Source: Gammaproteobacteria bacterium | Lineage (GTDB): Bacteria; Pseudomonadota; Gammaproteobacteria; Pseudomonadales; JAUIET01 | DNA: 64,000 nucleotides | Direction: 5' to 3' | Assembly (NCBI GenBank): GCA_030429735.1 | Contig: JAUIET010000001.1 | Span: 496,001-560,000, forward strand | Part shown: positions 13,305-21,984 of the stretch, one piece after another | Layout: each line of letters begins with the position of its first letter | How positions within the stretch are numbered: the stretch's first letter is position 1 | The notes under the pieces: generated by a model | Database searches by the model: none | What the model was told of the DNA's origin: nothing | Seen by the model: only the letters and a program-made list of their open reading frames with translations | Position numbers and translations under genes: made by a program

Positions 13305-14384
13305 TCATATCAGTTCCAACCACTTGTCTGCCAGCTCATACTTTCGCGTCTTGTTGCTGGTGCCATGCTGCACCATGAACCCCTGCTCTACCCATTTACG
13401 GCACTCATTCAGCGCTGTACGCGGTCTCAGTTGCAATAGCTCAGCCACTTCTCGCGTCGTAATGAACCGGCTACTCTGAAACAACGAAAGCACTTGCTTC
13501 TGCCGAGCGTCCAGCTCCCGCAGGAGGGATGCCTGATCCACGTTACTCTGAGTAGCACTGCTGCTAGCCTTGGCTCGGATCGTGCCAAAAGCATCAGCCA
13601 TACCGGTGCAAAAAAACTCTATCCAGCCCGTAATATCCGCCTCAACGCGCCCAAAATAGTAGTTATGCGACTCACCAATAGTTAGAGCCTTGTAGTAGGC
13701 CTGCAGGTCGCGGGCATAATATTCTTCGAGCGAGTAGATACCTTTCAGGCCATAACCTGCATTATGTAATACGAGGTTTGTCAGCAGTCGCGCTGTCCGA
13801 CCATTTCCATCGTAATAAGGGTGGATGGTGGCATATTGGTAGTGCGCAATCGCTGCCACTAGTGGCACAGGCAGATTGGAGGACTCAAACTCCGCATTGA
13901 TCCAGATTACCAGTTCACTCATCAGCTGAGGCACGTCTTTGGCTTCGGGAGGCATGTAGACAATGGCACCACTGCCACTGTCCTTTATGACGTTCTGCCC
14001 GTCGCGGTAGCCTGATGCGCTCCGCTTGCCTTCCATCACCAGCCCATGAAGAACCTGGATGTCATGCTCGGCAATGGCTTTTTCGGGAGAGCTAATGAGC
14101 TGATCAAGATAATCCAGGGCAAGATAGTAGTTCTTTACCTCGCGCTCGTCGCGCTCTCGGTTGGGAAAGCTCCCGCCCTTTAGAACGTCTTGCACCTGCT
14201 CCTGCGTGAGCCTGTTCCCCTCGATCTGGGTGGAGTAATGAGTAGAGACGAGGCGTGCCGACTCTCGCAAAGAGGTCAATACCTGCACTGTGATCGGCAG
14301 GTTTTCAACGGCCTGTCTGCTGGCCTCGATGTCCATCAGCATCTTGGTCAGCGTAGGCGTGATTTGGAAATTCGGCGTAAACAT
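13305..14384 (-). CDS. Fic family protein with N-terminal inhibitory motif
   Basis: 359 residues. The Fic active-site loop HPYYDGNGR is intact at 188-196 (catalytic H188). The inhibitory-helix motif STQIEG at 51-56 matches (S/T)xxxE(G/N), so this is a self-inhibited Fic enzyme with the inhibitory helix before the Fic core. The C-terminus (about 285-350) looks like a winged helix (RFITTREVAELLQLRPRTAL). Such proteins transfer AMP or related groups to Ser/Thr/Tyr of target proteins. It lies between the methyltransferase cluster and the reverse transcriptase, in the cargo. Confidence 0.92.
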   Translation of the reverse strand: MFTPNFQITPTLTKMLMDIEASRQAVENLPITVQVLTSLRESARLVSTHYSTQIEGNRLTQEQVQDVLKGGSFPNRERDEREVKNYYLALDYLDQLISSPEKAIAEHDIQVLHGLVMEGKRSASGYRDGQNVIKDSGSGAIVYMPPEAKDVPQLMSELVIWINAEFESSNLPVPLVAAIAHYQYATIHPYYDGNGRTARLLTNLVLHNAGYGLKGIYSLEEYYARDLQAYYKALTIGESHNYYFGRVEADITGWIEFFCTGMADAFGTIRAKASSSATQSNVDQASLLRELDARQKQVLSLFQSSRFITTREVAELLQLRPRTALNECRKWVEQGFMVQHGTSNKTRKYELADKWLELI

Positions 14385-14545: not shown

Positions 14546-15991
14546 CTATGCATTGATGGGATCAAGTGCACGCAGTAGTTCCTTTTTAATTGTCCGTTCG
14601 ATAAAGGCTTCAAGGTTCCTGAGCTGTCGCTGAATCTTCCGACCATTGTCATCAAACTTACCTGAGGCACGTAGAGCATATGTCCAAAATGTCCAACCCT
14701 GATAGCTGTCCACGCTGTCAAAGTCTTTCACGCGAAGAAAACGTTGCTTGAACTCATCCACTCCGTATTTCTCAATCAAATATGCACTGTCCCTATTCTG
14801 GTATCGCTTGACTGTTTTTTTCGCATGGCTTCGTGCCGCGTGGGCAATTTTTCTGTGAAGTCGGGAAATTGTATTGTTGCGAATGTAAGTTTGCTCGCCA
14901 TCAAATCGAAAGCCTAAATATTCGAGGCCATTTTTACCCTGTTGCCCTGAGACATAGCGGTAGGTGAGCCGCCCGTTTTCATTCACTTCATAACAACCGA
15001 CACATGTTTTACTGTCCTTAATTTCCAGCTCGCTGCCGAAATCCTTTATTAGATTTGATGTAAAATGTTTAGCCTGCAACGCCTCTTCTTCATTGCCGGG
15101 CAAGACAATAATGAGGTCGTCGGAATATCTGAAATAAAAGCCATTGTGCTTCTTCGTAAACTCATTCATCTGAACATCAAAGTCCAGTAGATACAGGTTC
15201 GCAAGCAAGTCTGATATTGGCGACCCTTGTGGTATGCCATGGCTATTCGCGTTTTTGTTAAGGAGTTCTGGATGCGCTGCAACGAGCTTTCGAAACTGCG
15301 TGGGTGTGCAGAGCTGCAATGGCACTTCGTTTTTGGGTATTTGGTAGTCATACCTAGTTATTCCCGAAAAGTCTTTTCGTCTCTCAAGGAATCCTAACGC
15401 TTCGTATAGATCATTCCGATCGACGTATGAATAGGCAGTTACGGCTTTAAACACCGCAAAGTGATCTTTTGGTAAGCGATCCATTCCGATCAACTTGCAC
15501 CAACTCTCCTTCAATTGCTGGTGATCTATACACTCGAAATAGCTACGAATGTCCAGGGTAACAACGCTGCAATTCTGCACCGACTTGATTAAGCTAAAGG
15601 CATCTGCCGCAAAATCAATGTTGCACTTCCCTCGGTTTGCATTGCCATCGCTTGGGATCTTTCTATAGGCTAGTACACACGACGAGACATCCATCTCCGC
15701 AAGTCTGCTCTCATATCGGGATGACAGTTTATGCCTGTAGTATTTAAGTACCGCGGAATCGCGCCGACAGGCGTAGCGAATTGGCCTCTCTTTAAACGCT
15801 CTGGAAACCTGACGTTCGCCGAACGGCATCCATCTATCCATATACTGTAGGAATGGAAAGAAGCGGTGCTCTGCTACGCGATCAGGATCCGACGCGTGGC
15901 TTTCTAACTCCTCCAGAGATGTCAGACCATCAAAATGGGGGTACCGCTTCAGATCTTTCTCAGTGAGAACTTGTTCGCTTTTTGTTTGCAT
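14546..15991 (-). CDS. Unknown-group (defence-type) reverse transcriptase
   Basis: 481 residues from the ATG at 15991. An upstream in-frame GTG at 16024 would extend it, but lies inside a strong hairpin. RT motifs: RPIRYACRRDS (69-79), motif A LDIRSYFECIDH with D147, GIPQGSPISD (252-261), and YSDD at 289-292 in place of the usual YADD, then EYLGFRF and a helical C-terminus with no endonuclease. The pattern of an HFAVFKAVTAYSYVD helix region and a single stand-alone gene resembles the UG/DRT antiphage enzymes, closest in my reading to the DRT2 type, but only a tree would decide. It is not a group II intron maturase (no HNH, no intron RNA seen) and not a canonical retron. Confidence 0.88.
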   Translation of the reverse strand: MQTKSEQVLTEKDLKRYPHFDGLTSLEELESHASDPDRVAEHRFFPFLQYMDRWMPFGERQVSRAFKERPIRYACRRDSAVLKYYRHKLSSRYESRLAEMDVSSCVLAYRKIPSDGNANRGKCNIDFAADAFSLIKSVQNCSVVTLDIRSYFECIDHQQLKESWCKLIGMDRLPKDHFAVFKAVTAYSYVDRNDLYEALGFLERRKDFSGITRYDYQIPKNEVPLQLCTPTQFRKLVAAHPELLNKNANSHGIPQGSPISDLLANLYLLDFDVQMNEFTKKHNGFYFRYSDDLIIVLPGNEEEALQAKHFTSNLIKDFGSELEIKDSKTCVGCYEVNENGRLTYRYVSGQQGKNGLEYLGFRFDGEQTYIRNNTISRLHRKIAHAARSHAKKTVKRYQNRDSAYLIEKYGVDEFKQRFLRVKDFDSVDSYQGWTFWTYALRASGKFDDNGRKIQRQLRNLEAFIERTIKKELLRALDPINA

Positions 15992-16378
15992 GCGGCCCAG
16001 TGAAAGAGAGCAGGAGCACCGCACGCGCTGCGGTTATGCCCCTGCTCTTCACTTTTTTAGCGAACGATCGGATATGTTGTCTACCTTCCCATTCTGATGC
16101 GCGTCGTTTTACAACGGAATGTTGTATGCTGGTTCAGTGGCGTTCACATGGCGTGTACACCCTGGACAGTGCCTAAACCGAGTAGTCATCAATATGAAAA
16201 TACATATCGTAACAATATCAGTCACAGGCCTTGTCAAAGCAAACAACTAACTCGCAGGCCCAAAGTCCCGCGATTTGGTAGATCTGGGGGCTCTTTATCA
16301 GATTTCAAGACCATTAGTTGAATTAATGGTCAAAAAGCCTCTGCAATAACCGCCTCTAAGCTACCGATAAGCTAATAT
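15992..16378 (-). ncRNA. Candidate structured RNA leader of the reverse transcriptase
   Basis: 387 bases with no credible gene lie upstream of the reverse transcriptase. A two-part hairpin occupies 16007-16048: outer stem AGAGCAGG/CCTGCTCT (8 bp) and inner stem ACCGCA/TGCGGT (6 bp) around a five-base loop. Known DRT2 and DRT9 systems carry an adjacent non-coding RNA that is the template or partner of the enzyme, so an RNA here is expected by analogy. Its ends cannot be placed from sequence alone. Confidence 0.35.
16007..16048. repeat. Long hairpin in front of the reverse transcriptase
   Basis: 8-bp outer and 6-bp inner perfect stems separated by a small asymmetric internal loop. On the plus strand it is followed by TTCACTTTTTT, so it could also end a rightward transcript, but no rightward gene is present. 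Confidence 0.7.
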
Positions 16379-16633
16379 TCAATCAATCAGCCGGATGTGC
16401 TGGCGCCGTTCCTGCGCCGAAAGCTCGCTTAAACACTCTCCCAGAAATGCCTCCCTCAGTAATGTACGCATATCGTCGATGTTGCTTTGGGGCGGGGTAT
16501 CGAGTGCTTCCAGTATTTCCGTGGCTTCAAGCAAGGCTTTAGCCAGCTCGTTACGCGTGGCATCTGACGGAGTCTCTGTCAGCTCGCAAGCTTGGCGCAA
16601 TAGATACCGGTCGCGTGGCGTTAAATTGGACAT
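16379..16633 (-). CDS. Small acidic helical protein of unknown function
   Basis: 84 residues, almost all predicted helix and rich in Leu, Glu and Arg, with no Cys. It follows the ParB gene and its terminator on the same strand and precedes the reverse transcriptase leader. No family is recognised. It could be an accessory protein of the element's core or of the reverse transcriptase unit. Confidence 0.5.
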   Translation of the reverse strand: MSNLTPRDRYLLRQACELTETPSDATRNELAKALLEATEILEALDTPPQSNIDDMRTLLREAFLGECLSELSAQERRQHIRLID

Positions 16634-16664
16634 AGCTTGTTCATAGCATTTTGTTACTGCTTCG

Positions 16665-16706
16665 ACAACAACAAAACCGCCCGATGGCGCTGAGCCATCG
16701 GGCGGT
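16665..16706 (-). terminator. Terminator of the ParB gene
   Basis: Perfect 13-bp stem ACCGCCCGATGGC/GCCATCGGGCGGT with a five-base loop. On the minus strand it is followed by TTTTGTTGTTG, 22 bases after the ParB stop. It is the clearest intrinsic terminator in the element. Confidence 0.85.
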
Positions 16707-16727: not shown

Positions 16728-18446
16728 CTAATTGTAGTGCTTTTTGATTGCCTTCCAATTGTCCATCGCAGTGATGCCGCCGTTCTTGGTATAGCCTTTC
16801 ATCGGAAATGCCATGTATCGAGCTTGCCAGTCTTTCTTGCCACCTTTTCTCTCGCCATTCAAAGCCTGACCAATCACTTGTTTTTGAACTTTAGCGGTGG
16901 AGGCGATGTGAGCATCGGCAGTAGCCTTACCTGCTACTTCCTTAAGCATGGCATTAATGGCCTGCTTGTCGCGCATCAGATCAAAGAACGCATCATCGGG
17001 TTGCCACTGGTTGGCCATGTCCACACACAGCATATGACCCAAGGCCTCAACCATTGCGCTCCCACATGGTAAGGTTTCGGCAACAGCAAATGTCAGAATG
17101 CGCGCAACGTCATCTTCACTTAAAGACAGCAGGGTCCCAAACAAGGCATGCAGGTCGTGTGGTTGCTCCCAATCCCCTTTGGCAGGTACAAGCGAATTTT
17201 GATCATTACCATCTATGCCAAGAAGACTGAATATCTGTTTGCGTTCTTCGGCAAATAGTTCTTCGGCTTTGTTATCTTGCAAGGAATCCGCAATCTTGTC
17301 AGAGGTTGCTTTTTGCGGATCAGCCTGTACCGTCCACAAAGATGAACCCGCAATTATCTGGGCAACTGCCAAGCGCAAGGCGACTCCAGTGTGACGTAGC
17401 AACTGGCTCCGAACCGCGCTATGACGATGCAGATCAAGATAATTTTGCATGGCTTGCGTGATTTCCGGTTTGGCCGGCGGTTGATTTGTGTCGCCCTCTC
17501 CGTCCTTTCCTTTCTTGGCTTTCGCATGCACAGCTTGGCGCGACAATTGGCCTTCGTAGAAAGAGACTTCTCCATCGTGCGATGCACTAATATAGACCTT
17601 ACCGCCATCTTTCTTGGCCGTGTCCAAATAGTCATAGGCAGGAAAATATTCGCCGATCTCCAGCACGATCACTTCGCTCCATCCATCCGCCAGATAGTTT
17701 TCCTTGGCTTTTGCTATCGCTTGGTTTTGCAGTGTCCAGAATTTCGACGCATCATCAAAATAGCTGTCCTCACCAAATAGATCGGTGACAATTCCACCTT
17801 CATAAGTGGAGACATCAAACAGCGCGTTGGACACTGGTATGTTTGCGCCACCAAACAGCCAGCTTTTGAGCTGGTAGCCTTCGGGGGCATAATATTCGTC
17901 ACTACGAAGTAAATCCAACCATGCCTTTTGTTGCTTTTTGGTCGCCATGGTCAGAATGCGCAAAGTTTCAGGTTCGATATCACCCTTCGAATAAGCCGTT
18001 AAGATAGGCGATATTAGATTGGCAATCGCCAAGCGTTGTGTCACCAGCTTTTTTGTCACGCCAAACTGACTGGCAATATCGTCACTGCTTAAACCTTGCT
18101 TGATGAGTTGAGCGAAAGCTCTATATTGATCGATTTCATCCATCGGCAATCGCGCAATGTTTTCGGCGAGTGATGCCTCCACGGCTTTGACATCATCACC
18201 CTCGCTCATCACCAGACACGGCACAGGTTCTTTGACGCCTTCCTCGGCAAGCTGTTCAAGCGCATGATAGCGTCTTTGCCCTGCGACAATTTCAAAGCCT
18301 TCGCAGTTTTTGCGAACTAATAAAGGCTGAATAAGGCCAAGTGAGCGAATGCTCGGCACAAGATCGCTGGTTTCCTTGGCGCGTTTTTTACGCACATTAA
18401 GCGGTGCGGGTTTCAGATTTTCTAATTCGATATGTTGTAGTTCCAT
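16728..18446 (-). CDS. ParB/Spo0J-type partition protein
   Basis: 572 residues. An N-terminal ParB nuclease-fold domain (about 1-100) has the GQRRYHALEQL motif, then a helix-turn-helix segment (SSDDIASQFGVTKKLVTQRLAIANL, about 119-143). The long C-terminal part is not assigned. This version is typical of plasmids and integrative elements and is much longer than chromosomal ParB. No ParA gene is next to it, so it may act in maintenance or gene control of the excised element and not in classical partition. Confidence 0.88.
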   Translation of the reverse strand: MELQHIELENLKPAPLNVRKKRAKETSDLVPSIRSLGLIQPLLVRKNCEGFEIVAGQRRYHALEQLAEEGVKEPVPCLVMSEGDDVKAVEASLAENIARLPMDEIDQYRAFAQLIKQGLSSDDIASQFGVTKKLVTQRLAIANLISPILTAYSKGDIEPETLRILTMATKKQQKAWLDLLRSDEYYAPEGYQLKSWLFGGANIPVSNALFDVSTYEGGIVTDLFGEDSYFDDASKFWTLQNQAIAKAKENYLADGWSEVIVLEIGEYFPAYDYLDTAKKDGGKVYISASHDGEVSFYEGQLSRQAVHAKAKKGKDGEGDTNQPPAKPEITQAMQNYLDLHRHSAVRSQLLRHTGVALRLAVAQIIAGSSLWTVQADPQKATSDKIADSLQDNKAEELFAEERKQIFSLLGIDGNDQNSLVPAKGDWEQPHDLHALFGTLLSLSEDDVARILTFAVAETLPCGSAMVEALGHMLCVDMANQWQPDDAFFDLMRDKQAINAMLKEVAGKATADAHIASTAKVQKQVIGQALNGERKGGKKDWQARYMAFPMKGYTKNGGITAMDNWKAIKKHYN

Positions 18447-18503
18447 GATATTTCCTTTCAGGGTCTTTTAAGTTTTGACGGTAGCGGAATTGCCACCTCG
18501 AAA

Positions 18504-18530
18504 CCCCCGCTTGTTACTATTTTGCGGGGG
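18504..18530 (-). terminator. Hairpin between ardA-like and parB-like genes
   Basis: Perfect CCCCCGC/GCGGGGG stem with a 13-base loop, 20 bases beyond the ArdA-like stop on the minus strand. The T tail is short (TTT), so termination may be partial and ParB could be read through. Confidence 0.4.
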
Positions 18531-18549
18531 CTTGAAGCTGGTCAGTCCG

Positions 18550-19041
18550 CTACCCGCACGAATAAATCAAGCGTTCGCCATTTATCACGGTGTCGCTGTA
18601 TTCAATTTCCAAGTCACGCGCGATAACGTCATAGTCGATGTAAGACGCGAGGCTTTCAGGGACGTTACCAAAGAGACCCTCATCGACAAATCGAAAGGCT
18701 AAGTCACGGTAACTGTCTTCCTCATAAATAGTGATATCAAAATCACTGGCTTGTGTGTCAGCGTTGAAGTCATACCCGCATTCCCCAACCGCAACAATGA
18801 CGTGGATTTTTTCCCACTCTTCCCATTCATCAACACAAGCAAAATACTGCGCCAGATTGGCTTGACTGATATCAATCGCTTTGGCCAGATCACAATCAAT
18901 GCTGTCGCCATCAATAAACTGGATTTCAAATTCTTCAACTGGATCGCCATAGCTATTTTTTGAGGGCTTTGGCTTGTCGATCGTATTCTTCGATTGAAGA
19001 AAAATAAAAGCCTGTCGCCGATATGTCGTAAGGCTGTGCAT
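18550..19041 (-). CDS. ArdA-like antirestriction protein
   Basis: 163 residues and acidic, as expected for a DNA mimic. The C-terminal half follows the ArdA pattern: acidic ECGYDFN region, RDLAFRFVDEGLFGNVPES, IDYDVIARDLEIEY (137-150) and a final GERLIYSC. ArdA proteins mimic B-DNA and block type I restriction enzymes, protecting a mobile element as it enters a new host. It lies just upstream of ParB in the element's core region. The N-terminal third is less conserved. Confidence 0.75.
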   Translation of the reverse strand: MHSLTTYRRQAFIFLQSKNTIDKPKPSKNSYGDPVEEFEIQFIDGDSIDCDLAKAIDISQANLAQYFACVDEWEEWEKIHVIVAVGECGYDFNADTQASDFDITIYEEDSYRDLAFRFVDEGLFGNVPESLASYIDYDVIARDLEIEYSDTVINGERLIYSCG

Positions 19042-19152
19042 GTAATATCAATGTCACTGGTTCAACTCCCAAACTTGTTTCAAGGTTTCAATCACGCTTG
19101 GAGAGTTCTTTGTTAAACACCTCCCGCGCATGAACCCTTGCCCAGCGGCGAG

Positions 19153-19217
19153 CGTCCAAACAAAAAAAAAGGAGACAAGTTGCGCCGGGCCAAGCACGGC
19201 GCATCCTTTTTTGGACG
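19153..19217. terminator. Nested inverted repeat, likely bidirectional terminator
   Basis: Outer arms CGTCC...GGACG, an A stretch paired with TTTTTT, GGA/TCC, and an inner GC hairpin. Either strand gives a GC stem followed by T residues. It separates the ArdA/ParB unit from sequences to the right. Confidence 0.55.
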
Positions 19218-19383
19218 AGAGATCAAACCTTTCCGGGGATGTGTCCATCATTTTTGTGGGGGACCGCTTAGCCCTTCCCCATGAGCGTCAGCGAACGGCT
19301 GGAAGGTCTTGCGGGTAAAAATGATTGACACACAGTGCCAGCGTCGCCGGATTTGATATAAGCTGGTATTGGGGTTCGAGCGC

Positions 19384-19434
19384 AGGTCAGCTGACCTTGC
19401 GCGTCAATTGAAGAGAAGCGGCAGGCATGCCGCT
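19384..19434. promoter_or_regulatory. Pair of palindromes, candidate protein-binding site
   Basis: Perfect 14-bp palindrome at 19384-19397, then a 7-bp hairpin with a four-base loop at 19417-19434. The first is a typical dimer-binding operator or parS-like site; the second could be a nick-region hairpin. Assignment is open. Confidence 0.35.
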
Positions 19435-19696
19435 ACAAACCTATTTTTATTGGGGTTCTTTAAGAATTGAGGCCGGGTACCACCGCTGTACGAGAAATGT
19501 CTTTGGCCTACTGTCAAGCATAGTAATATTCAAGTCTGTTCTATTGAACGGCCTCAGCAGAATCGTCGATCGAGAATTGACCCTTCTCCGATCCGTTGCT
19601 CGATATAGGATAGTGCAAAAATCGTACCATACACAAAACACCGGCCTTTCTGATTTTCAGACTCTAACTACAAAAACCATGTCTTGATGAACACTA

Positions 19697-20293
19697 TTAA
19701 CTGCTTTGGGAGTGATCTTGCTCCCAAATAGGAACGAAATGCAGTCCCGTCAAACCAGACAATTCGTATTTCATCTTAAAATCCATATCTTCGTCTGAAA
19801 ACACCCCTGAGAGTATCAACATCTCGGTTAGCACCGTCTCGGGTATCTTAAACGCCGAACAGCCAGGCAACCTTTCTTCCACAAAAATATATTCTTCAAT
19901 ACCGAGCTTTTGGTTTGTTTTCCCATCGACACGCCATGTAGTTCTTCCTTTGTCGAGACAATTGACACATTCCAGGATATTCCAAATGAAATAATCTTCC
20001 TCGCAATCCTCTATATTAACTGGCAGGAGCTCTCCTGAGTAATAGACGATTGATTTAAGTGACTCTACAGCACGTTCACTAATCACAAAAACGCCGTCCA
20101 ATAAACCGAAAAAGTCTGGCCTAGGTAACAACGGATTTAGAACCCAAAATTCTACGGGCATCCAAGTCTCTTGATGCTTCGTAGTATCGAACTTTCTCCA
20201 TAATTCGACAGCCAGTTCATCAGAAAACTTTAAGAGTTGGTAGTCGTCTACGAGTGCAACAGGTCGATATATTTTAGTTTTATCAGTAGCCAT
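19697..20293 (-). CDS. Imm11-like (DUF1629) immunity protein
   Basis: 198 residues, cytosolic. Motifs MPVEFWVLNP, RPDFFGLLDGVFVISERAVESLK (71-93) and FIWNILECVNCLD (125-137) follow the pattern of Imm11/DUF1629 immunity proteins of polymorphic-toxin systems. It lies 98 bases downstream of the AHH-nuclease gene on the same strand, the usual toxin-then-immunity order. It would bind and block the nuclease in the producing cell. Confidence 0.75.
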   Translation of the reverse strand: MATDKTKIYRPVALVDDYQLLKFSDELAVELWRKFDTTKHQETWMPVEFWVLNPLLPRPDFFGLLDGVFVISERAVESLKSIVYYSGELLPVNIEDCEEDYFIWNILECVNCLDKGRTTWRVDGKTNQKLGIEEYIFVEERLPGCSAFKIPETVLTEMLILSGVFSDEDMDFKMKYELSGLTGLHFVPIWEQDHSQSS

Positions 20294-20391
20294 GAAATAT
20301 GTAGAATCTAAGATTATTCTTTAAAGTGTATTGAATTAGTATCTCAAGGTCTACAGTTTGTGGCTCTCATATTGAGTCGATGCCTTCTAGT

Positions 20392-21984
20392 TTAAAAAAA
20401 TGTATTGCTGAGTAGATCACTTCTAATGGCCGCTAACTCTGCACGAACTGCCGCTCTTCTCGCTATGATATTTGAACCAGCTTGCAGTTCCGCCTGGTTA
20501 AGTCGATTGAAGACCATTATTTCGTATGCATTCGTGTACGTAGCAGAGTGATGAGTAACAGTCCTAGTAGCAGAAAGCTTGGCAGATGTACTGCCGTGTG
20601 GAAGAGGCACTCCATTAGCAGCATGATCTATTCTAACCCCATTCCGGGATATAATTTGTCTAGAAAGCACAGATTGTTGTGTGCGCCCCTTTATTGGCAC
20701 GATATGGTGAGGCACCCAACCTTCTGGCACTTCGTAACCATGCCTCTCTAGGTTTTTGCGCAATGTTTTTGCGCTTCCTCCTTCACCAGCTTTTGGGGAT
20801 TTTTCGCCATTTCCTTCAGGGTCATCTGGATTAAAACCAGGTGGAGGAAATCCAAATGTATCTGGATCATCACCTCCGCTCATCTCAGCTAACACCAAAG
20901 TCGGCGCGTTGGGGACCTGAACCATTCCGTTGTCGCTCGGCGTAAGCCAAGGAGTTGAATTGGAAGTTAAAATAACTGGAATAAGAATCTGCGATACTGT
21001 AACTGCATCACTAAAATCTAACTCACCTGAGGCTACCGCACTCGCCAATATAAGCCCCATTCTTGCCAACGCCGCCTCGGAAATAACTCCGGTAACTCTC
21101 GGCAGAATAACTGACAGAGGATGAGCCGTCGCATTGTTGGCTACGACATTGTCATAACAAGTTGTACCGCAATCCTTTATACCATTATCGTCTTCAATCA
21201 TGAGCTCTCCGTCAGTAACATCGGCAAGCCCATTTACTAGCTCAACATATGGATCAAAGTTGTTCGTTGTCTGAAACTCGCAATCGACTACAACACTAAC
21301 CTGGAAGCCAAAAAACAAATCAAATAGATCAAAACCCAGGTCTTGAAGTAAAGCTGCGCTGACTGTGTCAGTCGCAGACACTATCGCTCCACCATTACAA
21401 GTGATGGTGGCATTCTCCATAAAAGTCGTCTCGGGCCTAGAGAGCGTTCTGTAGTACAAATCTGCTAAGTTTTGCAAATCTTCATCTACCGGTAAAAGCT
21501 TAAGTGGTGTAGCGCCGGTAACCGGAGATGCATAGATAATAAGCTCATTGATATCAGTCGAAAAAATATCAATAACATCTGTTGCAAGCTCGACAACTAA
21601 GTCCAATGCCCCATCAAAATTAAAATCATCTAGCGATAAATTAGTGTCTGATTCAGGCCATAGTCTGTAATCCTCTTTCTCTTCTGGAGTAATATTGTCA
21701 ACCTGATGGAAGGTTCCGTCCTGCTGCTGCTCCAATATGAACTCACCGGCGGTTAGGTCTGCTGATTCACCATTCTCAAATTCCCCAACCACGATCGGAG
21801 TCGCGATATTCCCATGTAGAAAAACGACTTTTGTTTTATTGGCAGTCACAAAGAGGTCGGTCATACCGTCCCCGTTGTGATCGCCCATGCGGGCTACATA
21901 TCTATCACTAAAGGAGCCTGCAGAAACAGCGCTGCTCAATATTGAGAGTCCTATTATGAACATGGTGTGAGTTAGTAGTCTCAT
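20392..21984 (-). CDS. Secreted VCBS/FG-GAP protein with C-terminal AHH nuclease toxin
   Basis: 530 residues. A signal peptide (about 1-22, ending SAVSAGS) is followed by Ca-binding FG-GAP-like turns (DHNGDGMTDLFV, FNFDGALDLVV), a middle region and, after a Gly/Pro-rich linker (about 375-400), an AHH-type HNH nuclease domain: WVPHHIVPIKG, then GVRIDHAANGVPLP and a late TVTHHSATY motif. AHH domains are DNase/RNase warheads of polymorphic toxins. The first residue of the motif is Pro instead of Ala. The secretion route is presumably Sec plus an unknown release step. It pairs with the Imm11-like gene. Confidence 0.8.
   Translation of the reverse strand: MRLLTHTMFIIGLSILSSAVSAGSFSDRYVARMGDHNGDGMTDLFVTANKTKVVFLHGNIATPIVVGEFENGESADLTAGEFILEQQQDGTFHQVDNITPEEKEDYRLWPESDTNLSLDDFNFDGALDLVVELATDVIDIFSTDINELIIYASPVTGATPLKLLPVDEDLQNLADLYYRTLSRPETTFMENATITCNGGAIVSATDTVSAALLQDLGFDLFDLFFGFQVSVVVDCEFQTTNNFDPYVELVNGLADVTDGELMIEDDNGIKDCGTTCYDNVVANNATAHPLSVILPRVTGVISEAALARMGLILASAVASGELDFSDAVTVSQILIPVILTSNSTPWLTPSDNGMVQVPNAPTLVLAEMSGGDDPDTFGFPPPGFNPDDPEGNGEKSPKAGEGGSAKTLRKNLERHGYEVPEGWVPHHIVPIKGRTQQSVLSRQIISRNGVRIDHAANGVPLPHGSTSAKLSATRTVTHHSATYTNAYEIMVFNRLNQAELQAGSNIIARRAAVRAELAAIRSDLLSNTFF

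Follow-up and report, generated by a model that had tools for sequence, protein, structure and literature searches.

A little-studied DRT2 branch with a probable way of building a gene present nowhere in the genome

In the window, by which we mean the whole 64,000-nucleotide stretch analysed here (contig JAUIET010000001.1, positions 496,001 to 560,000, from a gammaproteobacterium of the order Pseudomonadales; coordinates below are counted from its first base), a reverse transcriptase (RT) of the UG2/DRT2 type is encoded at 14546-15991 on the minus strand, and a non-coding RNA is predicted just upstream of it. We consider it likely that these two parts form a UG2/DRT2 antiphage system that makes a hidden repeat gene, neo. 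Compared at the sequence level, the related copies of this little-studied DRT2 branch probably show the way in which a gene present nowhere in the genome is built. Across the clade we find a conserved RNA alongside enzymes that belong to DRT2 in the wide sense, a unit whose length is a multiple of three, a stop-free frame, and the promoter geometry and start position that come with it.

Template units and reading phase across the clade

Relatives were gathered with a three-sequence profile, which gave at least 44 loci in a species-genome collection (a lower bound, with two sequence patterns used) and 3 loci in viral contigs; two plasmid copies were added. A single-protein query against the genome and viral contig sets returned no relatives, whereas the alignment-based query did find them. 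The 430 upstream bases of 40 loci, including the window, align as a conserved block up to the RT start, in which two motifs, ACTGTCAAGG and ACAGTATA, lie near the 5' and 3' ends, respectively, of a variable middle part, and a scaffold with a covarying helix follows. The template unit is set by one joining rule on these aligned positions: GTT, 8 bases ahead of TGTCAA, is joined to GT(C/T), 16 bases past the start of CAGTATA. Under this rule, unit length is divisible by three in 38 of the 40 loci, and all 38 units are stop-free in the same frame. With L043, L053, L056, L034, and G088 added, 43/45 are divisible, and with L055 the count becomes 44/46, with frame 0 open in 44/44; of the 43 divisible units in the 45-locus set, just 2 are open in frame 1 and 1 in frame 2. 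Unit lengths vary from 99 to 150 nucleotides (nt), and no phase is seen in control distances measured on these RNAs, where remainders of 0, 1, and 2 occur 11, 11, and 12 times for the 3' scaffold and 12, 15, and 7 times for the 5' part (n=34). When the 40 loci are reduced to a non-redundant set of 31, 29 templates are divisible by three and frame 0 is open in 29/29, compared to 5.3 expected from shuffles. Near copies among the 46 loci include L012/L022, L024/L061, and L036/L059. Kinship among loci makes the counts overstate independence; the variation of lengths in steps of three is the sturdier point.

Four loci (L054, L058, L062, and L063; 28-32% identity) are other DRT2s and were left out before counting, as was L035, whose upstream part is lost at a contig end. 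L043, L053, and L056, which are without the first anchor pattern, were added after the first locus list together with L055, L034, and G088, the last two entering through matches to the RNA model described below. For L034, automatic detection at first produced a 161-nt candidate that is not divisible by three, and the 5' end was then chosen by eye; for L055, it gave no candidate, and motifs supplied both ends, with the model match in agreement on the 3' side. In three loci outside the training of the RNA model (G088, L055, and L034), the units are divisible and frame 0 alone is open. L055, an Acidobacteria metagenome-assembled genome, has the shortest unit, 99 nt or 33 codons, with a 6-nt junction repeat, GTTGAA.

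The join also creates a promoter. As complementary DNA (cDNA), ACTGTCAAGG becomes CCTTGACAGT and AGTATA becomes TATACT, leaving the -35 and -10 elements in the wrong order until repeats are joined. The commonest promoter of the joined repeats in the clade is TTGACA-17-TATACT, matching 11/12 consensus positions, and TTGACA is exact in 38/45 loci. The fixed junction gives a spacing of 17 by rule; a free search of 15-19 prefers 17 in 40/45 loci and 15 in the other five, four of them ties. A promoter-based scan returns the aligned unit length as its top solution in 36/44 loci (L043, L053, and L056 being defined by the scan), with a different length in L018, L030, L034, L038, L048, L050, L052, and L060. 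Taking the best start per locus, in counts made without a shuffle control, an in-frame start lies 14-17 codons ahead of the repeat end in 41/41 units and is ATG in 33, and a ribosome-site match of at least 4, usually in GGAG-like letters, is present in 37/41. The predicted Neo repeats align with each other, with a Tyr at the -10 position invariant in 29 aligned repeats and a mostly LDSxN ending. The Neo frame is hydrophobic, with a mean grand average of hydropathy (GRAVY) of 0.61 and 39/41 units above zero, compared to a mean of -0.62 and 6/82 above zero for the other two frames.

RNA binding, rolling-circle copying, the phage trigger, and toxicity are proposed here by analogy with the Klebsiella system. 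The RT would bind the RNA transcribed from its own leader and, upon phage infection, would copy the template, 129 nt in the window. At the template end, the cDNA end (AAC) would leave one GTT and pair again at the second, which lies just past the template start, copying would restart, and a tandem-repeat cDNA would grow. After second-strand synthesis, each junction would set the -35 and -10 elements at 17 bp, RNA polymerase would transcribe the repeats, and translation of the stop-free frame would yield a Neo protein that is repetitive, hydrophobic, and probably helical and that arrests the cell. It seems fairly likely that this separate, mostly alphaproteobacterial DRT2 branch builds hidden neo genes on the same rolling-circle principle with its sequence parts exchanged. 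The parts concerned are, with comparable plausibility, a GT-based triplet for ACA, the clade's own scaffold, a Neo ending in LDSxN, and a deep start behind a Shine-Dalgarno sequence.

The reverse transcriptase and its upstream RNA

The initial annotation proposed a defense-type RT with a YSDD motif, and both points are borne out. The open reading frame (ORF) at 14546-15991 (-) encodes 481 amino acids (aa) with the catalytic box RYSDD at residues 288-292. Its top PADLOC model is Drt2 (PDLC03757; 446.8 bits, E 3e-134), followed by a second Drt2 model at 327 bits; the next non-Drt2 model, RT_UG17 (82.6 bits, E 6e-24), trails by more than 350 bits, and the Drt9 model scores 53.7 bits. The best NCBIfam match is the Drt2 equivalog NF041746, with 366.1 bits against a curated cut-off of 390. 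A sequence search of the PDB finds DRT2 entries 9lje and 9c0i (E 6e-62 and 9e-62), and Foldseek places 9c0i first (E 8e-32) for an AlphaFold2 (AF2) model with a pLDDT of 85.8, with 29% identity in the fold alignment. We take 9c0i to be the Klebsiella DRT2 protein. Because PADLOC, NCBIfam, and the sequence and fold searches all rank DRT2 first, the window enzyme is a divergent UG2/DRT2 reverse transcriptase, DRT2 in the wide sense; because its NF041746 score is below the cut-off, we file it as a divergent UG2 clade and not as a Drt2 equivalog. The enzyme is intact, retains the invariant residues, and has a good predicted fold. Its start ATG at 15991 lies 12 codons ahead of the conserved DLKxYPHF motif; a GTG at 16024 is in frame too, but in most relatives a start codon stands 8-11 codons ahead of this motif.

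In a phylogenetic tree of 52 DRT2-type enzymes, 34 clade members including the window lie on one side of a branch with support 100/99, and 18 other DRT2s, the PDB chain among them, lie across it. Thus, the window falls within a separate DRT2 clade, where its enzyme forms a long lone branch (0.91). By record title, the clade is mostly Alphaproteobacteria, with L034 and L050 labelled Gammaproteobacteria, L017 Solirubrobacterales, and L055 Acidobacteria; L054 and L058, among the other DRT2s, are Firmicutes. The nearest outside relative of the clade, on a long branch, is a plasmid RT of Candidatus Megaera (L072; 507 aa, YSDD). The initial annotation pointed to YSDD in place of YADD, but YSDD occurs in 42/42 readable boxes among 45 clade members and also in 7/18 other DRT2 sequences, so it is not special. 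Internal stops or frameshifts break the RT in 7/44 translated relatives (L020, L024, L028, L032, L045, L052, and L057); the stop in L018 sits at the RT end, and the RT of G088 is split with a TGA. In these seven loci and in L014/L016, where the RT gene is likewise interrupted, the template units nevertheless keep an open frame and a length divisible by three, and the breaks may reflect either recent decay or sequencing error. Sulfitobacter sp. M05 (L041) and a Devosia locus (L051) are examples of relatives that are strong and intact. A same-genus genome (G001) shares only 45 matching bases with the window region, which leaves an empty site unreadable, and a DNA-level search of plasmids with the window leader gave no match.

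Upstream of the RT, the next same-strand ORF ends at 16379, and the intergenic region 15992-16378 has the 387 bases first reported. Its description as gene-free holds in the linear genome only, as joined template repeats carry an endless plus-strand frame; two mechanically called ORFs on the plus strand, 64 and 74 codons long, also overlap it. The presence of a structured RNA in this leader is supported by its fold, a covarying helix, and a match to a covariance model, R1. The predicted non-coding RNA, with approximate ends, spans 16000-16331 (-), with support from the 40-locus alignment block, the fold (z -6.4, with 0/100 shuffles as good), and R1. It had been expected at 16049-16378, and it does lie in the leader but reaches further 3', to about 16000, taking in a hairpin and the 3' scaffold. 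The hairpin, the 42-nt two-stem element of the initial annotation, is found at 16007-16048 (-) as two stacked stems with a minimum free energy of -29.8 kcal/mol (z -6.3, with 0/200 shuffles as good), and we regard it as a candidate "tower". Its outer stem covaries in the clade: for 6/7 consensus pairs, one or more of 34 sequences carry a change of both paired bases. The 3' scaffold occupies 16000-16115 (-). Toward the 5' side, a hairpin at 16252-16273 (-) is a candidate 5' handle (z -2.8, with 2/200 shuffles as good) that also scored terminator-like, and a hairpin at 16309-16331 (-) (z -3.9) marks the likely 5' edge of the RNA. The sequence of this last hairpin is not conserved in the clade, a TTGA just past it is common to most members, and it may instead be part of the upstream gene's end. 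As for the suggestion that the RNA is a new variant, it does differ from the Klebsiella type, but the enzyme belongs to a known family, UG2/DRT2, and the variation is limited to the RNA, its junction, and how neo is laid out.

Model R1 was built from 33 loci with the window excluded. It matches the window at 16000-16139 (-) with 30.1 bits (E 2.4e-5 in 169 kb), and the 5-Mb genome holds no other match at E<=0.001 (150/409 first-look candidates scored). It also matches G088 (72.7 bits), L034 (20.3 bits), and L055 (20.9 bits), each immediately upstream of its own RT. In a scan of 398 genomes at E<=1e-4, G088 was matched and no other genome; the window genome, G000, was missed there under the scan's stricter filters, and has E 7e-4 when searched alone. 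Besides G000, the only close enzyme in this sample is that of G088 (44% identity), the enzyme of G366 having 34%. None of 17 other DRT2 loci (L002, L003, L015, L054, L058, and L062-L073) is matched, although L066 offers just 82 bases ahead of its match, and thus the RNA scaffold appears particular to this clade at the sensitivity of R1. L035 was likewise without a match, its upstream part being lost. Rfam gave no match at gathering score here and nothing DRT2-like; below that score, the only match was a weak one to a snoRNA (E 0.29).

The window's own unit and competing explanations

From the aligned junction positions of the clade, the window's template region is 129 nt, at 16116-16244 (-), starting with the first GTT triplet (16242-16244) and followed directly on its 3' side by the second (16113-16115). 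On the plus strand, the same 129 nt form a predicted neo repeat unit of 43 codons, stop-free over the junction (GMLYAGSVAFTWRVHPGQCLNRVVINMKIHIVTISVTGLVKAN), so that the frame over the template turns endless when repeats join. The junction expected from the GTT join is AAAGCAAAC followed directly by GGAATG. The -35 hexamer TTGTCA (16231-16236, +) and the -10 hexamer TATGCT (16125-16130, +) are 17 bp apart only in joined repeats, and an in-frame ATG at 16194-16196 (+), neo codon 27, occupies the clade start position behind a weak ribosome site. A leader-only scan without alignment, with promoter spacing limited to 16-18, ranks the 129-nt unit first. AlphaFold predicts two helices for one window repeat with low confidence (pLDDT 67.8, pTM 0.33), in line with the helical Neo models in the available text of PMC11100668.

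Several observations weigh against a hidden gene in the window and in the clade. The window's junction promoter, TTGTCA-17-TATGCT, matches 9/12 positions, its hexamers 5/6 and 4/6, and its ribosome-site score is 3, both weaker than in most relatives. An open frame 0 arises by chance at 0.11 in shuffles of the window unit alone, a second frame is also open, and the RNA-model match is only 30 bits. Judged by its own sequence, the window is thus one of the weaker cases, unconvincing by itself, and the case is built on homology to the clade. Among relatives, L048 (142 nt) and L060 (130 nt) have units that are not divisible by three and carry stops in all frames. Most of the clade has GT(T/C) where the junction aligns, but across 31 non-redundant loci the two GT copies match in 90% compared to 91% expected from column make-up, and the three bases from one position earlier match in 39% compared to 27% expected; the junction GT is conserved, covariation is unsupported by the match rate, and the short junction homology counts against the model. 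The phase test fixes length modulo three only, the exact join depending on spacing and the conserved GT, and the junction was picked after data inspection among three possible phases. Among 141-nt units, differences are spread almost evenly over the codon positions (546/695/672) and the synonymous fraction reaches 234/762 compared to 25.5% expected, so protein-level constraint on the Neo repeat appears weak. A search of 15900-16700 for a sigma-70-like promoter of the RNA itself came back empty. Pairing that would close the template reaches 56% of cells in the window's register, compared to 68% and 61% in two shifted registers; one fixed closing register, unsupported across the clade, was rejected.

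These weaknesses bear on how the window copy should be read. One alternative places the unit on a 5-nt direct repeat, ACAAC (16111-16115 and 16243-16247), which gives a 132-nt unit that is equally divisible by three and open; its promoter spacing would be 20 bp, however, and the 129-nt join both fits the clade's aligned position and tops the window scan at spacings of 16-18, so we rejected the longer unit and consider it improbable as the true one. The weak -35, -10, and ribosome site, the long lone branch, and the broken enzymes elsewhere in the clade, including the split one of G088, could also mean that the window copy is a decaying member, in which the enzyme still reads but the drifted junction promoter and ribosome site yield no useful Neo. 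We give this only a slim chance, as the window enzyme is intact with its invariant residues and good fold, and its unit is still divisible by three, open, and spaced at 17.

Two further explanations question the coding role or the system itself. The RNA could serve as template and guide for a cDNA that acts as DNA, like the poly-dA of DRT9 or the repeats of DRT10, with the open frame incidental; other ncRNA-dependent DRTs do work via non-coding DNA, according to the available text of PMC12483538 and PMC12632851. Against this, phase is held over 99-150 nt in one common stop-free frame, the ribosome site and start codon keep one position, and the product is hydrophobic; we find such a function very improbable. 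An ordinary retroelement, built around the enzyme and RNA of a group II intron or a retron, would account for the distant similarity to both kinds of enzyme, yet the placement with group II introns that the initial annotation named as its refutation did not occur: the NCBIfam group II intron model TIGR04416 scores 73.6 bits, with a cut-off of 300, compared to 366.1 for Drt2, and a group II intron enzyme follows DRT2 in the fold search at E 4e-11. The lead of Drt2 over other PADLOC models also contradicts this explanation, and the Rfam result speaks against it; we attach practically no credence to it. The hidden repeat gene remains our preferred reading of the locus.

In the surroundings, a Fic-domain protein (13305-14384) adjoins the RT, with a PADLOC SoFic match of 180 bits that is far below the NCBI SoFic cut-off. 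Upstream neighbours are a ParB-like protein (16728-18446), an ArdA antirestriction-like protein (18550-19041), an Imm11-like immunity protein (19697-20293), and an AHH-nuclease-domain protein (20392-21984), and the region 16728-21984 looks like a mobile or conflict island. Nine ORFs further along had no PADLOC match.

Implications and comparison with known systems

DRT2 systems have a gene that comes into being only through reverse transcription, and the available text of Tang et al. 2024 (PMC11100668) leaves open whether distant relatives share this ability, calling Neo annotation in divergent clades "more challenging" and suggesting alternative mechanisms. A later DRT2 paper (PMC12596737) aligned closely related RNAs, as far as its available text goes. 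Among titles and abstract openings (supplements and most subscription papers lying outside this scope, so that absence is unproven), we found no other paper describing Neo in such a clade. If our reading is true, it supplies this Neo annotation, and hidden-gene synthesis would be ancestral to both DRT2 branches rather than a speciality of the Klebsiella group. Phase, promoter geometry, and start position would be kept while the alignment triplet and scaffold turn over. The clade gives exact, testable junctions in 46 loci, as well as a simple rule for hidden-gene searches: conserved phase plus hexamer spacing across a virtual junction.

Group II intron RTs have the palm and fingers fold in common with the window enzyme, with the TIGR04416 score far below its cut-off. 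DRT9 (SenDRT9) resembles the window locus in having a single RT with an upstream ncRNA and a repetitive product, and differs, in the available text of PMC12483538, in its U-rich template for poly-dA, its lack of a coding role, and its hexameric assembly. The likeness to Klebsiella pneumoniae DRT2 extends to the RT fold, an RNA just upstream of the RT, a template with a 5' hairpin on one side and a 3' scaffold on the other, a unit divisible by three, and a stop-free frame. It further includes -35 and -10 elements brought to 17 bp at the junction and a hydrophobic repeat protein, as reported for Klebsiella Neo in the available text of Wilkinson 2024 (PMC12039810).

The differences from it include units of 99-150 nt and a scaffold whose model leaves 17 other DRT2 loci unmatched. 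Klebsiella DRT2 has YCDD in 425 aa, compared to YSDD in 481 aa for the window enzyme. The Klebsiella-type template is flanked by two ACA motifs, in contrast to GTT in the window and GT(T/C) in the clade, where ACA flanks are thus lacking. As a positive control, an ACA-flank search on L002, a Klebsiella-type DRT2 in a genome of the window's order (G040), recovered the published pattern of ACA, 120 nt, and TTGACA-17-TATAAT with an open frame. Of six loci searched in this way, L002 alone had a good promoter, L070 had a weak one (7/12), and four had none. L064 has a 111-nt unit with TTGACA-17-TATAAT on a repeat other than ACA, so the use of ACA may not be general even close to Klebsiella. The start codon lies 51-84 nt past the -10 element in the clade (63 in the window), whereas the Klebsiella ribosome site and start are, in the available literature text, 13 nt downstream.
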